Part shown: positions 2,234 through 30,000 of the stretch, piece after piece | Numbering within the stretch: the first letter of the stretch is position 1 | Layout: every line of letters starts with the position of its first letter | Source: Pseudomonadota bacterium | GTDB lineage: Bacteria; Desulfobacterota; Syntrophorhabdia; Syntrophorhabdales; Syntrophorhabdaceae | Direction: 5' to 3' | Length of the DNA stretch: 64,000 nucleotides | Assembly: GCA_026388275.1 (NCBI GenBank) | Contig: JAPLKB010000030.1 | Span: 1-64,000, forward strand | Program-made: the position numbers and the translations under genes | The notes under the pieces: model-generated | The model's input: only the letters and a program-made list of their open reading frames with translations | Told to the model about the DNA's origin: nothing | The model's database searches: none

Positions 2234-2492
2234 TTTTATGGATATATCATATTCTCCGAACTGTCGTAAGCACTTTTATTCCCGCTCCGTATTCAGAACA
2301 CACAGATGAATATAACAATGGAGACGCCTACAGTTGCCATTCTCTTTTTCAAGCCCTTTTTATATTGTATATTTATAATTCTGATAATTATATCAATAAA
2401 TGTCAAGAATATTGCAATAGATTTTTCTCCATTACCACTTGAAGCACTTTATTACAATGGAAAATAGAAAAAATAACATTTCAGGAAGGAAC

Positions 2493-2580
2493 TTGTACCT
2501 CAAAAAAAGCCACGCAGTGTGCATTTCGGTAAGAAAGATTTGGCTTCAGGCAAAAACCGCGGAGCGCGCACTCCAGGAAG
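2493..2580 (+). repeat. Dispersed 46/47-bp-period degenerate repeat, copy A
   Basis: The block starting TTGTACCTCA and containing CCACGCAGTGTGCATTTCGG followed by AAGAAA closely matches 48369-48413. A degraded second unit begins near 2557, 47 bases after the CCAC of the first unit at 2510. A partial inverted copy lies near 46272-46299. The match between distant non-coding sites shows a dispersed repeat family and not a gene. Confidence 0.65.
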
Positions 2581-2617
2581 CTAACACTTTTTTTCAAGTA
2601 CGCAAGAACCGGATGAA
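2580..2617 (+). repeat. 38-bp direct repeat, left copy (flanks hepT/mntA)
   Basis: The stretch starting GCTAACACTTTTTTTCAAG and continuing ACGCAAGAACC then GATGAA is repeated at 3642-3680 with only about two or three differences. The two copies bracket the toxin-antitoxin pair at 2838-3471. Confidence 0.75.
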
Positions 2618-2837
2618 ACTTAATTAATATTATCTGCTCATTTCCCTTCTTTTTCATTCTCTCTCACAATCTCATTTACAATCTTCTCTGCATGAACGGG
2701 AGAATAGATGGGAATAATCTGCCTTACTGAATTCACCTTTCATGGAATCGAAGCAGGCATTTGGTAGGGCATTTAAGGTAATATTCAAAATTGTGGGATG
2801 TACAACAATGGGTGTATTCAGGAAGTGATACTGATTT

Positions 2838-3188
2838 TCAATCTCTTTTTGCAGAGATTAATCTTTCAAGCATGAGCTTCAACTCCGGTAATCGTTCCTG
2901 TGCGACTTTCCAGACAGTCTTCAAGTCTACACCCATGTAATCGTGTATAAGCACGTCTCGCATACCAGCCATTTTGCTCCAGGGAATGTCAGGATATTTC
3001 TGGCGAAATGATGTTGGTATACGTTTAGCAGCTTCGCCAAGAACTTCAAGGCTCCTGATTACCGCATTGACAGTCTTCTTATCTTCTGCAAATGTCTCGT
3101 AATGCATACCACGTGTGAACTCTTCTACGTCGGCAATGGCAGTCAGGATATCGTCAAGGTAATCAGCCATCTCACGACCCTTAGACAT
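2838..3188 (-). CDS. hepT: HEPN-domain toxin RNase HepT
   Basis: A small helical HEPN protein of 116 residues. The catalytic motif Rx4HxY is visible as RDVLIHDY (Arg77, His82, Tyr84). In characterised HepT/MntA systems the HEPN protein is an RNase toxin, and its motif tyrosine is AMPylated by the partner nucleotidyltransferase. The start chosen is the ATG at 3188, with AGAGG upstream, giving an 8-base overlap with the end of the mntA gene. The frame is open further upstream but that part lies wholly inside mntA. The tight overlap implies translational coupling, antitoxin first. Family assignment is firm from motif and pairing; toxicity is inferred. Confidence 0.88.
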   Translation of the reverse strand: MSKGREMADYLDDILTAIADVEEFTRGMHYETFAEDKKTVNAVIRSLEVLGEAAKRIPTSFRQKYPDIPWSKMAGMRDVLIHDYMGVDLKTVWKVAQERLPELKLMLERLISAKRD

Positions 3189-3471
3189 ATTCAACCTCTG
3201 CCAGGATATATTTACCAATAGTCGGTTTAAGGGCTGTTTCCATAACCAGATCAACCTTATTATGCAGCCTGCTTTCAAGGTACTCACGGAGGTCCAGAAA
3301 ATCGAAAAGATCAATATCACGACTGAAGGTGACAAGTATGTCTATGTCACTCTTTCTCCTCTGCCGTTCTCTGACGTATGAGCCGAAAAGTCCGAGGCGC
3401 TTGACCCCATAGCGGGATTCCATTTCTGGCTTTATACTTCTAATAATGTCAACTACCTCTTTTTTCCCCAT
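3181..3471 (-). CDS. mntA: MNT-type nucleotidyltransferase antitoxin MntA
   Basis: A minimal nucleotidyltransferase of 96 residues. The signature GSx10DxD is intact (Gly30-Ser31, Asp42, Asp44 in SDIDILV), with a probable third acidic ligand at Asp74 (KVDLV). Known MntA proteins transfer AMP to the HepT tyrosine and so neutralise the RNase. The gene begins with ATG at 3471 and its last 8 bases overlap hepT. The ribosome site is weak (a GCGGG stretch before the start). Both genes lie between 38-bp direct repeats, consistent with a module that arrived as a unit. Confidence 0.88.
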   Translation of the reverse strand: MGKKEVVDIIRSIKPEMESRYGVKRLGLFGSYVRERQRRKSDIDILVTFSRDIDLFDFLDLREYLESRLHNKVDLVMETALKPTIGKYILAEVEYV

Positions 3472-3813
3472 AATAAATTACCCGCCAGTTTAAATCTGAT
3501 ATAAAAATTAATTATATAGAAAGTATAGGTGAATCTACTTTTTATGTCAAAAGGATTAATCTAAAGCGGGTGGAAAAAGCATTATAATCAGGAAATTGGC
3601 GGAACATTGTGTTAATTTTGTTCAGATGCATGAGCGTTATCGCTAACACTTTTTTTCAAGCACGCAAGAACCTGATGAACTATAAATCCTTTTACAAAGG
3701 AAATACAGTGAAGAACGGCAGGGATTTTTTTGAAAAAGCACCGGATTCAGGTTTTTAAATACATATAAAACGAAAAGATTATGTTTTTTATTTGAAAACC
3801 CTTTAAGGTATAT
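3472..3813. other. Spacer between mntA and ahbB
   Basis: This divergent spacer contains the right 38-bp direct repeat (3642-3680) and must hold promoters for both the leftward mntA-hepT pair and the rightward ahbB operon. No clear sigma-70 pair could be fixed. An AAGG ribosome site at 3805-3808 serves the GTG of ahbB. No gene is seen. Confidence 0.5.
3642..3680 (+). repeat. 38-bp direct repeat, right copy
   Basis: GCTAACACTTTTTTTCAAG followed by CACGCAAGAACCTGATGAAC nearly matches 2580-2617. Immediately upstream the bases GAGCGTTATCGCTAAC form a short hairpin (AGCG/CGCT arms), which the left copy lacks. Confidence 0.75.
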
Positions 3814-4284
3814 GTGAAAATTAACAACATGTATAAAATTCTAAAAAACATACCCGGTGATTTCCCGATTATTGAGAGACCATACGATGAAATGGCAAAC
3901 AATGCAGGTATGAGCGAGGTAGAGTTCTTATCTGCGCTCAACAAATTAAAAAAAGAAGGCATAATACGGAGAATTGCCGCTGTACTTTTTCATCGAAGGG
4001 CTTCCTATACACATAATGCAATGGTTGTCTGGAAAGTTAAGGATGATGATGTTGACAGGGCAGGGGGCATCATGGCTTCTTTCCCTGAGGTCAGCCATTG
4101 TTATGAGAGGGAAAAAGGGGATTATTGGGATTACAACTTATACACAATGATACACGGGAAAAGCCTTGAAGACTGTAAAGAGATCGCCGGACGTATCTCA
4201 GAGCATACAGGCATAAAAAACTTCCAAATGTTCTTCAGCAAGAGGGAATTTAAAAAGATACCGCTAAGGGTGATTTATGAATAG
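3814..4284 (+). CDS. ahbB: Siroheme decarboxylase subunit AhbB (Lrp/AsnC-like fold)
   Basis: A 156-residue protein with an AsnC-type winged-helix N-terminus (residues about 10-50, ending RRIAAVLFHRRASY) and an RAM-like C-terminus containing VSHCYERE, YNLYTMIHG and a final FFSKREFKK block, all typical of AhbA/AhbB. These proteins decarboxylate siroheme to didecarboxysiroheme in the alternative heme pathway of sulfate reducers and archaea. The start is a GTG at 3814 with AAGG five bases upstream; an ATG at 3829 is possible. The stop overlaps the hemL start by 8 bases. The linkage to hemL supports the tetrapyrrole role. The partner ahbA is not in this window. Confidence 0.85.
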   Translation: MKINNMYKILKNIPGDFPIIERPYDEMANNAGMSEVEFLSALNKLKKEGIIRRIAAVLFHRRASYTHNAMVVWKVKDDDVDRAGGIMASFPEVSHCYEREKGDYWDYNLYTMIHGKSLEDCKEIAGRISEHTGIKNFQMFFSKREFKKIPLRVIYE

Positions 4285-5570: not shown

Positions 5571-6695
5571 ATGAGCAAAATGAGAAATCATAGAGCTATT
5601 GCGCAGATAGATTTAAAAGTACTTGAAGAAAATTATTGGATGATAAAATCCCGGTTGTCTGAGAATGTTAAAATACTCTGCGTTGTCAAAGCCGATGCTT
5701 ATGGCCACGGCATGATTCAAGTTGCCGGTAAACTTGAATCTATAGGCGCCGACTATTTAGGAGTTGCAACGGTCAGTGAGGGTATGCATCTAAGGTCTCA
5801 TAATATAAAGGCCCCTGTACTTGTCATGGGCGGCATGGTGCCCTGGGAGGACGTGCAGCAGGTTTTGGACAATAACCTTACGCTGGCTGTGCATGATCTG
5901 GATATGTTAAAAAGAGTAAAAGATGCCTGTATACTTCAGGATAAAACAATAAACATTCACCTGAAAGTCGACACCGGTATGGGAAGGCTTGGTTTTAATC
6001 CCGGTAATATACCTGCTGTAATTGAAGAGTTAAAGGACAAAAAATGTGTCAAAGTGGAAGGCATTATGAGTCATTTTTCTTCTTCAGAAATAAGGGATGA
6101 ATACGGGAAGATACAGGTAATGGTTTTTAGAAATATTTTACAGTTGTTTCAAAACAGCGGCATTAAAACAAATCTTAATCATATGGCAAACAGCGGAGCC
6201 ATAATTAATTATAAAGAAGCGCATTTCAATATGGTGAGAGTCGGAATAAATCTTTACGGTTCTTATCCTTCAGTCGAATTGCGAGAGAGTTTCCCTGTAA
6301 AACAGGTAATGAAGCTGATATCAAGGATTGCGGTGGTCAAAGAGTTTCCTCCGGGGTATGCACTGAGTTACGGGAGATCTTATACTACGAAAAAGAATGC
6401 AAAGATAGCATGCATACCTTTTGGTTATGCAGATGGTTACCCCAGATCTCTGTCGAATAAAGGTTTAGTGTTGATAAAGGATAAAAGGTGCAATGTGGTT
6501 GGAAAGGTTTGCATGGACTGGATATTGGTTGATGTAACGGGTATTGAGGATGTGAAAGCAGGCGACGAGGTGATTTTGCTGGGTAACGGTAATAATGATA
6601 GAATTACTGCTGATGAGATGGCGCACCTGGCAGGCACTATCCCTTACGAAATACTCTGTAAGATATCCGGAAGAGTACCGAGGATTTATGAATAG
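5571..6695 (+). CDS. alr: Alanine racemase
   Basis: A PLP enzyme that interconverts L- and D-alanine for peptidoglycan. From the ATG at 5571 it has 374 residues, the usual size. The PLP lysine is Lys40 in VVKADAYGHG, and the second catalytic base is Tyr267 in GYALSYGRSY. The C-terminal beta domain includes VCMDWILVDVT. The frame is open back to 5535, inside hemL, but 5571 sits one base after the hemL stop and gives the family N-terminus. The 3' end overlaps mlaE by 8 bases through the same ATGAATAG overlap seen at ahbB/hemL. Confidence 0.95.
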   Translation: MSKMRNHRAIAQIDLKVLEENYWMIKSRLSENVKILCVVKADAYGHGMIQVAGKLESIGADYLGVATVSEGMHLRSHNIKAPVLVMGGMVPWEDVQQVLDNNLTLAVHDLDMLKRVKDACILQDKTINIHLKVDTGMGRLGFNPGNIPAVIEELKDKKCVKVEGIMSHFSSSEIRDEYGKIQVMVFRNILQLFQNSGIKTNLNHMANSGAIINYKEAHFNMVRVGINLYGSYPSVELRESFPVKQVMKLISRIAVVKEFPPGYALSYGRSYTTKKNAKIACIPFGYADGYPRSLSNKGLVLIKDKRCNVVGKVCMDWILVDVTGIEDVKAGDEVILLGNGNNDRITADEMAHLAGTIPYEILCKISGRVPRIYE

Positions 6696-27030: not shown

Positions 27031-30000
27031 ATGAAAGGACCAGGATGGATTTTACTTGTAAGTTTGTTGGTGATCGTTGCTGCCAATCCCTTAGGGGTCA
27101 ACCTCGCTCAGGCAGGCCCGGGGACACTGGCAGGGACAGATGCTTCGGTAACGCCGAGCGGCGGCACGTTTTACGCCAACAGTCCTTTAGGCACGCATCG
27201 GTACTGTAACGCTGCCGGCGTGTGCAGTGCTACAAGAGATTCTGGAACAGCCCTTGCAAAGTTTGTCGACAAGCTGCCGGGACTGGGATCGGCGAACGCG
27301 AATGGTCTTGGGCAATATATCCCTGTTGCCACTCCTGATACGACAACCTATTCGGGATCTGATTACTACGAGATCGGACTGAAGGACTATACCCAAAAAA
27401 TGCATACGAACCTGCCCAAAGCTACCAAACTCAGAGGTTATTATCAGAAGAATGGAACAGACCATTCTACACAGTATCTGGGACCCCTGATCTTGGCCAA
27501 AACGTACGATCCTACCAAAACGGCGGGCGTGGCGGGAAATGGAAAGCCGGTGCGTATCAAGTTTTTAAATGAGCTTGGCATAAATGGCGCCGGTGACCTA
27601 TTCATTCCTGTAGATACCACGTATATGGGTGCAGGGATGGGACCTTTGTCCGCTGCTGGCGCACCTTGTGATCCATCTCTCCCTGGCGCAACATGTGCCA
27701 GTTATACACAGAACCGTGCCACCATCCATCTACATGGCGGCGTCACGCCATGGATCAGCGACGGTACACCCCACCAATGGATCACCCCGTCAGGAGATTC
27801 AACCCCCTACAAAAAAGGTGTGAGCCAGCAAAACGTTCCTGATATGCCGGATCCAAACGGTCTGGTACAAGGATCGGCTACTTTTTATTACACCAACCAG
27901 CAGAGCGGCCGACTGATGTTCTATCATGATCATGCCTATGGGCTCACCCGTCTCAATGTCTATGCCGGCGAGGCCGCGGGATATCTTTTATACGACCAGA
28001 CAGAGGAAGATTTTATTCTGGGGACCAATACCTCGGGTAACAACTCTGGCCTTAAATCGCCAATCCCTAATAATGGCGGAGGTGTTTATACTTATGGTAT
28101 TCCACTTATCATCCAGGACAAGACCTTTGTGCCAGCCGACATCGCAGTCCAGGATGCCAAGTGGACAAATGCCAAATGGGGAGTATCCGGTGACCTCTGG
28201 TATCCGCACGTATATGAGACGAATCAGTGGCCTGATAATCCGGACAACAGCGGAGCAAACAATTTCGGCAGGTGGGATTGGGGCCCCTGGTTCTGGCCGC
28301 CGGTAATCGTGGATGCGGCGCACAGCACGCCACCGGTATACCAGTGGGATGTGACCGGCACACCTGAAGCATTCATGGACACCATGTTGGTCAACGGCAC
28401 TGCCTATCCCTACCTTCCGGTGAGCCCGACAGCTTATCGGTTCCGAATTCTTAATGCCTGCAATGACAGACCTCTCAATCTGCAGCTGTATGTGGCCGAT
28501 CCCATGATCACAACCGGAGCAGGCGTTGGCAAGGAAGTCCCAATGGTTACCGCAGCCTCGCGTCCGGCCTGTTCTCCGACGCTTGCAACTAATTGCACAT
28601 GCAACGATGGAACCAGTAAGCCTAACATCCTCTGGAGGAATACTGCGACCGGTCAGAATTCCGTCTGGTTAATGAATGGGATAGAGTTTTTGAGCGGGCA
28701 ATCCTTAAATCAAGTACCCGATCCGAACTGGGCACTTGTTGGTGTGGGTGACTTTAATGGTGACGGCAACCCGGACATCCTCTGGAGGAATACTGCGACC
28801 GGTCAGAATCACGTCTGGTTCATGAATGGGACAGAGATTTTGGACGGGCAATACTTCCATCAAGTACCCGATCTGAACTGGAAAATTGTTGGTGTGGGTG
28901 ACTTTAATAGTGACGGTAAGCCTGACATCCTCTGGAGGAATACTGTGACCGGTGAGAATCACGTCTGGTTCATGAATGGAATAGAAATTTTGAGTGGGCA
29001 ATATTTCAATCAAATACCCGATCCTAACTGGGCACTTGTTGGTGTGGGTGACTTTAATGGTGACGGCAACCCTGACATCCTCTGGAGGAATACTGCGACT
29101 GGTCAGGATTACGTCTGGTTCATGAATGGGATAGAAATTTTGAGCGGGCAATACTTCAATGAAGTACCCGATCTGAACTGGAAAATTGTTGGTGTGGATG
29201 CCTTCAATGCAGGCGCCAACTCGCCGGCAGGCTGCTTCCCTGATACATGGCCTACGGATGGAAGGGCAGGCGGTGTGCCTGATCCTGCCTATGCAGGTCC
29301 GAAGATGATCCAGATAGGCACCGAAGGCGGTTTGCTGCCTGCGCCGGTGGTGCTCAATAATCAGCCGGTTGGCTATGAATACAACCGGAGAACCATCGTG
29401 GTTCTCGATATCCTGAACCAGACGCTCCTGTTGGGACCGGCAGAGCGTGCCGATGTCATCATCGACTTCTCCGCTTTCCCCGGTAAAAACGTCATTCTCT
29501 ATAACGATGCACCTGCGCCCAATCCGGCTTTTGACCCGCGCTATGACTATTTCACGGGAGACCAGGATAATACCTGGATGGGCGGTGCTCCTACGACTGC
29601 GGCAGGATATGGCCCCAATACCCGGACCATCATGCAATTCCAGGTGGCATCTGGTTCTGCAACGACACCATATTACAATGACACGGCTAAGATGGCCACT
29701 TTGACCACAGCGATGCAAACCGCCTTCAATGCGACTCAGCCCAAACCTATTGTGCCGCAGACGACATATCCTGCACCAAATAACGTTGTTGTCGGCGCCC
29801 AGTATGCACACATCCAGGACAACTCTATGACTTTCAAGCCAATTGGAGGAGCATCAAATACGATCAATTTTAACTCCAAGGCCATCCAGGAACTGTGGGA
29901 CCCCTACGGACGGATGAACGCTACACTGGGAGTCGAACTGCCTTTTACCAATAATAATATACAAACAACAATCCCGTTGGGGTACGTAGATCCGGTTACC

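Follow-up and report, generated by a model that had tools for sequence, protein, structure and literature searches.

A HepT/MntA toxin-antitoxin gene pair lies between two near-identical direct repeats in the stretch of DNA analysed here (hereafter the window: positions 1 to 64,000 of contig JAPLKB010000030.1, assembly GCA_026388275.1, from a bacterium of the Syntrophorhabdaceae). Because about one-fifth of the relatives of this pair likewise sit between repeats, which are different in each case and locally copied, we suggest that such pairs move into genomes by a transposase-free route in which DNA of the landing site is duplicated. For the movement of small toxin-antitoxin pairs without a phage, plasmid or transposon as carrier, the signature of a duplicated target, present at ~20% of the loci, offers a direct and countable trace of insertion events. 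The divergence of the repeats dates the insertions, and the repeats define the ends of the mobile unit.

The gene pair and its flanking repeats

The features of the region are listed in Table 1. The two direct repeats are identical at 36 of 38 positions (two mismatches), with 1062 bp from start to start, and their similarity extends weakly to 53 bp at 83%. The 19-base core GCTAACACTTTTTTTCAAG has exactly two exact matches in the 3.5-Mb genome, which are the two repeats, and no match with up to one mismatch was found in 98 related genomes. In the window, 0.06 chance matches with up to three mismatches are expected. The named relatives of a neighboring gene indicate a Syntrophorhabdaceae-like genome.

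Table 1. Features in and around the HepT/MntA interval (window coordinates)
Feature	Coordinates	Strand	Remarks
Dispersed repeat copy	2430..2626	+	Head from ATTACCACTTG; unit 1, 2478-2525; unit 2, 2526-2573; end unit, 2574-2626
Left direct repeat (copy 1)	2580..2617	+	End unit of dispersed element; 2580-2594 of local type, 2595-2617 of donor type
vapC (PIN) relic	2641..2740	-	Last 25 codons with 92% amino-acid identity (2641-2715), then frameshifted and truncated
hepT	2838..3188	-	HEPN ribonuclease toxin, 116 aa; HepT-like PF01934, 2.7e-32; motif RDVLIHDY (RX4HXY), from alignment
mntA	3181..3471	-	MNT adenylyltransferase antitoxin, 96 aa; NTP_transf_2 PF01909, 3.7e-13; PDB 1wot, 5yep; motif GSX10DXD, from alignment
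Conserved stretch upstream of mntA	3520..3555	-	Found also in G036 and G030; probably the promoter region; module homology ends here on the right
Right direct repeat (copy 2)	3642..3679	+	Solo end unit lacking the usual preceding CAGGAA
Start of synteny with sister species G001 (85%)	3773..4284	+	Includes siroheme decarboxylase ahbB-like gene (3814-4284), followed by hemL

The antitoxin gene mntA lies upstream of hepT and overlaps its start by 8 bp; its GSX10DXD motif reads GSYVRERQRRKSDID. With an RX4HXY toxin and an adjacent upstream GSX10DXD antitoxin, the pair corresponds to the type VII Class I HepT/MntA systems (PF01934/PF01909). It is not filed as an NCBIfam equivalog, since its scores for HepT_toxin (NF047751) and MntA_antitoxin (NF047752), 47.1 and 47.2 bits, are below the curated cut-off of 60; these equivalogs are a narrower set than the Pfam-defined family, and membership of the wider Class I rests on motifs, gene order and Pfam. 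No solved structure matching HepT by sequence was found. By analogy, the pair should work as a type VII system, in which MntA would AMPylate the tyrosine of the HepT RX4HXY motif and so block the RNase.

Homology of hepT-mntA to other genomes spans about 2836 to 3555. Most of the left part of the interval is filled by the vapC relic, and no transposase gene was seen between the two repeats. A sequence-only reading of the window had described near-identical 38-bp direct repeats around a HepT/MntA pair, with no transposase present; the repeats were borne out by the alignment and by the two genomic places of the core, the identity of the pair by its Pfam matches and both signature motifs, and the transposase was indeed not seen between the repeats. 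Contig C57 carries an intact vapBC-like pair, the source type of the vapC relic, in which a DUF6364 antitoxin and a PIN_3 toxin directly adjoin a complete dispersed repeat (L062:1610-2289). A 5'-truncated hepT relic, 88% identical to hepT of the window, is found near a 192-bp direct repeat pair in another genome (G016, contig C8; L069:2264-2542).

The left repeat ends a dispersed intergenic element

Copy 1 is the last unit of a modular, genus-restricted, dispersed intergenic element of ~200 bp. The element opens with a head, which starts ATTACC(A/G)CTTG, continues with ~47-bp units of the pattern CAGGAAG...CAGGCAAAAACCGCGCAG... in variable number, and may close with an end (tail) unit, CAAGTACGCAAGAACCGGATGAAC. 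The unit model gave 61 hits in this genome and 19 in the sister species; two other genera had two and one, and another 56 genomes had none. As copy 1 is the end of a dispersed element, the repeats are not dedicated cassette ends. Abundance of the repeat across the genome, which had been named as the observation that would speak against its belonging to the module, came out half true: about 13 good matches to the tail unit occur in this genome, several of them solo, but copies 1 and 2 are the most similar pair among them (95%; next pair 87%, median 66%). All 15 positions of the variable left half are the same in copies 1 and 2, compared with at most 11 of 15 for any other tail pair. Taken alone, the dispersed nature of the repeat weakens the notion of cassette ends; the junction with C57-type DNA and the family-wide bracketing, both described below, restore it.

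The element at the left repeat recurs at about 45 other genomic places (e.g. L081:1497-1724, L062:2302-2493, L088:1474-1618), and at 28 of 40 copies the downstream neighbour is on the opposite strand. It sits between genes of all kinds, and the neighbours of other copies are ordinary; toxin-antitoxin genes as its usual neighbours were rejected in view of this diversity. Same-orientation pairs of elements within 2 kb are in excess genome-wide (6 observed, 1.15 expected), and the elements within the pairs examined are not closely alike. At two loci that this genome has in common with its sister species, the 3' end of the gene still carries the element and the sequence beyond it has changed, and elements coincide with synteny breaks between this genome (G000) and the sister species (G001). 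Searches for a known RNA family gave no Rfam match, and neither a consensus structure nor a folding signal was obtained for the repeat. A Y1/RAYT transposase was rejected as well, with no PF01797 match in G000 and positive control genomes. The repeat had no match in viral contigs, nor had the region in plasmids.

Other repeated sequences were observed in the window. A block at 1142-1354 (~110-213 bp) is 85-89% identical to sequences in other genera of the family (L183:1095-1309; L184:1501-1709; L185; L186). The block lies just upstream of unrelated genes, namely one for a coiled-coil membrane protein in the window, a restriction endonuclease-like gene in G005 and, in G016, one for a membrane protein. 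At its far end it is similar to the head of the dispersed repeat. Bases 60 to ~145, with the bases preceding them, recur with at least 99% identity at six other contig ends (C6, C16, C46, C53, C56, C64) and probably belong to the margin of an insertion sequence whose multiple copies interrupted the assembly. Several copies of the dispersed repeat are located 1-3 kb from contig ends carrying this sequence. A tandem array at 28621-29209 has a 150-bp unit in 3.9 copies (87% matches).

A junction within the left repeat and the sister species

Compared with the closest paralogue, on contig C57, the head of the element is 58% identical, the two units 79% and 76%, and the left half of copy 1 47%; from there onward, identity is 92% in the right half of copy 1, 95% in the intergenic sequence and 97% in vapC. 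Because this step in identity falls inside the repeat, copy 1 is a joint between the local element and C57-type DNA, and the interior was joined at copy 1 by recombination. The sequence to the right of copy 1 is the vapC relic and not the toxin-antitoxin module, and at C57 vapC is likewise contiguous with the tail unit. Since the relic adjoins copy 1, the event does not amount to hepT-mntA inserting cleanly and by itself into a target. As the repeat family is dispersed, copy 2 may also have arisen independently, as a solo copy.

The sister species G001 does not have the module. It aligns with the window only from 3773 on, beyond copy 2, and no close match to 60-2480 was found in it; G001 differs from the window over more than the module.

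Direct repeats at HepT/MntA loci across the phylum

In G062 and G036, which have the closest hepT-mntA homologues, the pair also lies between direct repeats of ~50 bp, unrelated in sequence, and no flanking repeats were found at the G030 locus. To survey the family, the left and right flanks of HepT loci across the phylum were compared at 101 usable loci, mostly in draft assemblies, with a score of 25 or more as the criterion for direct repeats. Direct repeats of 28-326 bp bracketed 20 of the 101 loci, a number in which one event appears twice (G062 and G162), giving a fair independent count of 19; the arrangement common to these two genomes speaks against assembly error there. As the threshold was chosen after a first sample of 30 loci that were the best hits, the second, independent sample at threshold 25 gives the cleaner estimate (12 of 74 loci, 16%). 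Locus L286 was left out of the count, its slice running past the contig end.

In the same-contig control, with equal geometry 2.5-4.5 kb away, direct repeats were found in 2 of 328 cases, both from one tandem array. Inverted flanking repeats occurred at 1 of 101 loci, and pairing the left flank of one locus with the right flank of another gave 1 of 1496. The excess of direct repeats at HepT/MntA loci over the controls has a p value of about 1e-11. Both signature motifs were present at 95 of the 101 loci, 19 of which had repeats. Loci of PIN_3 toxins (VapC), analyzed by the same test, had repeats in 5 of 67 cases (control at those loci, 1 of 35), a rate below that of HepT (p = 0.03) and above the pooled background (p = 0.003). 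The ~80% of HepT/MntA loci without such repeats count against the proposal made below, and may represent old events or another route.

At the other loci, the interval between the repeats (770-1469 bp) is mostly too short for more than the toxin-antitoxin pair. The repeat sequence is different at every independent locus and copies local DNA: the 3' end of a tRNA-Glu in G232 (46-47 bp), what reads from translation alone as the 3' end of dapL in G240 (213 bp) and as the start of a type I restriction gene (hsdR) in G149 (72 bp), and a gene 3' end in G062 and G162. In two genomes, G126 (L293:5281-5450, 6288-6458) and G149 (L250:5329-5400, 6099-6170, reverse-complement coordinates), HepT/MntA was observed at or beside an apparent type I restriction gene, part of which is duplicated.

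The G062 locus can be compared with its empty site. The congeners G099 and G189 contain the left flank of G062 and a single copy of the target (partial in G099), without the module, and in G099 the right flank resumes nearby. On another contig, G099 carries the module with homology to 857 of the 910 bp that separate the repeats in G062 (query 1042-1898 within the inter-repeat interval 1010-1919), and none beyond. The comparison gives direct evidence of what moved at the G062 site, namely the segment between the repeats. With variable repeats that are own to each locus, and a related genome with a single-copy empty site for the G062 locus, the pattern matches insertion with long target duplication.

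The proposal that the window's module had been inserted as a cassette can accordingly be kept in part. Insertion of a segment is supported by the step in copy 1, the sister species without the module and the family-wide excess of direct repeats, whereas fixed cassette ends are not right: the repeats copy local sequence, here the end unit of the dispersed repeat, as target duplications do.

Proposed mechanism and alternatives

The explanation we favor, with moderate confidence, is that HepT/MntA is a small mobile unit without a transposase of its own, which entered by recombination that left a duplicated target. In the window, the duplicated target would be the end unit of the dispersed intergenic repeat upstream of ahbB-hemL. 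The incoming DNA would have comprised the right half of such a unit, the 3' end of vapC and hepT-mntA, joined at copy 1, and copy 2 would close the other side of the insertion. Copies 1 and 2 would then derive from one event, in which host recombination or repair, homologous or microhomology-based, presumably joined the incoming DNA, and toxin addiction may help the insertion to persist. More tentatively, and with somewhat less confidence than doubt, HEPN/MNT pairs and, to a lesser degree, other toxin-antitoxin pairs might be autonomous transposase-free mobile units. Their insertion, as a two-gene segment with nothing else, would follow a common pathway in which 30-330 bp of target is duplicated, often at the end of a gene or tRNA, and the toxin would select for cells retaining the tandem structure.

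Two tail units recombining reciprocally or ectopically, as in the entry of a tail-vapC-hepT-mntA circle into a resident tail by single crossover, would also give a copy 1 of local type on its left and C57-like on its right, and it would suit the coincidence of elements with G000/G001 synteny breaks. The hybrid look of copy 1 and the vapC relic that came along make it a strong alternative for the window case; on the whole we consider it unlikely, as it does not account for the loci at which the repeat is a unique gene end, unless the donor carried part of the gene, and copies 1 and 2 do not differ in their left halves. It is less likely still that the bracketing is a coincidence, with the toxin-antitoxin pair merely lying between neighboring, independent copies of a REP/ERIC-like dispersed repeat. 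The many unit and tail hits in the genome, the excess of not closely alike same-orientation pairs and the ordinary neighbors of other copies would all agree with this, but the variable left part common to copies 1 and 2 is in no other copy, identity changes stepwise within copy 1, and other HepT/MntA loci are bracketed likewise by sequences that are not dispersed.

A transposon origin, in which the repeats would be remnants of an insertion sequence or a repeat mobilised by RAYT, could draw on the start of the window in sequence repeated at six other contig ends. We regard it as very improbable, given a genome without Y1 transposase, an interval in which no transposase gene was seen, inverted flanking repeats that are not enriched, and duplications of such variable length. 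Direct repeats around a small operon of a kind common in integrons might further recall a gene cassette between attC sites. This can practically be dismissed: the flanking sites of such cassettes would be similar, but the repeats here differ at each independent locus and copy different host sequences, among them genes or tRNA, similarity between loci is near zero, and the units of the element have no conserved structure.

Comparison with known systems

In the Shewanella HepT/MntA system (SO_3166/SO_3165), the RNase is silenced through adenylylation of its RX4HXY tyrosine by MntA (PMC7641770). The pair in the window has the same gene order, RX4HXY and GSX10DXD motifs and Pfam families; unlike in the HepT/MntA type VII systems described, about one-fifth of the loci here have flanking target duplications, of which we found no description, and the NCBIfam scores are below the cut-offs. 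HEPN/MNT has been called the most abundant system of this kind in prokaryotes (PMC7641770). Its mobility has been noted by comparative genomics, as in Thermus, in which strains HB8 and HB27 differ in the presence of a module at one locus (PMC2701414). The same presence or absence between related strains is seen here; direct repeats are not mentioned in that text, and no report of HEPN/MNT insertion with long target duplication was found in open-licence papers.

The element in the window shares with REP, ERIC and MITE-type repeats that it is a multi-copy intergenic family, here located at synteny breaks. It is unlike them in its modular build of head, ~47-bp units and end unit, and in having no RNA family, structure or Y1 transposase.

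The closest parallel is found in restriction-modification systems, whose insertion leaves target duplications of roughly 100 bp (PMC3874152), as described by Nobusato et al. 2000 and Furuta et al. 2010 in the summary given there, and also in PMC3031569. In both cases, addictive two-gene modules, apparently without a transposase, are flanked by direct repeats that copy the target and vary in length around ~100 bp. The loci analysed here differ in their cargo, a HEPN/MNT type VII pair or less often a PIN_3 locus, and in a repeat length of 28 to 326 bp; in the window, moreover, a dispersed repeat serves as the target and the insert includes a vapC relic. Through this signature, the spread of toxin-antitoxin pairs is linked to the mechanism that has been proposed for restriction-modification systems.
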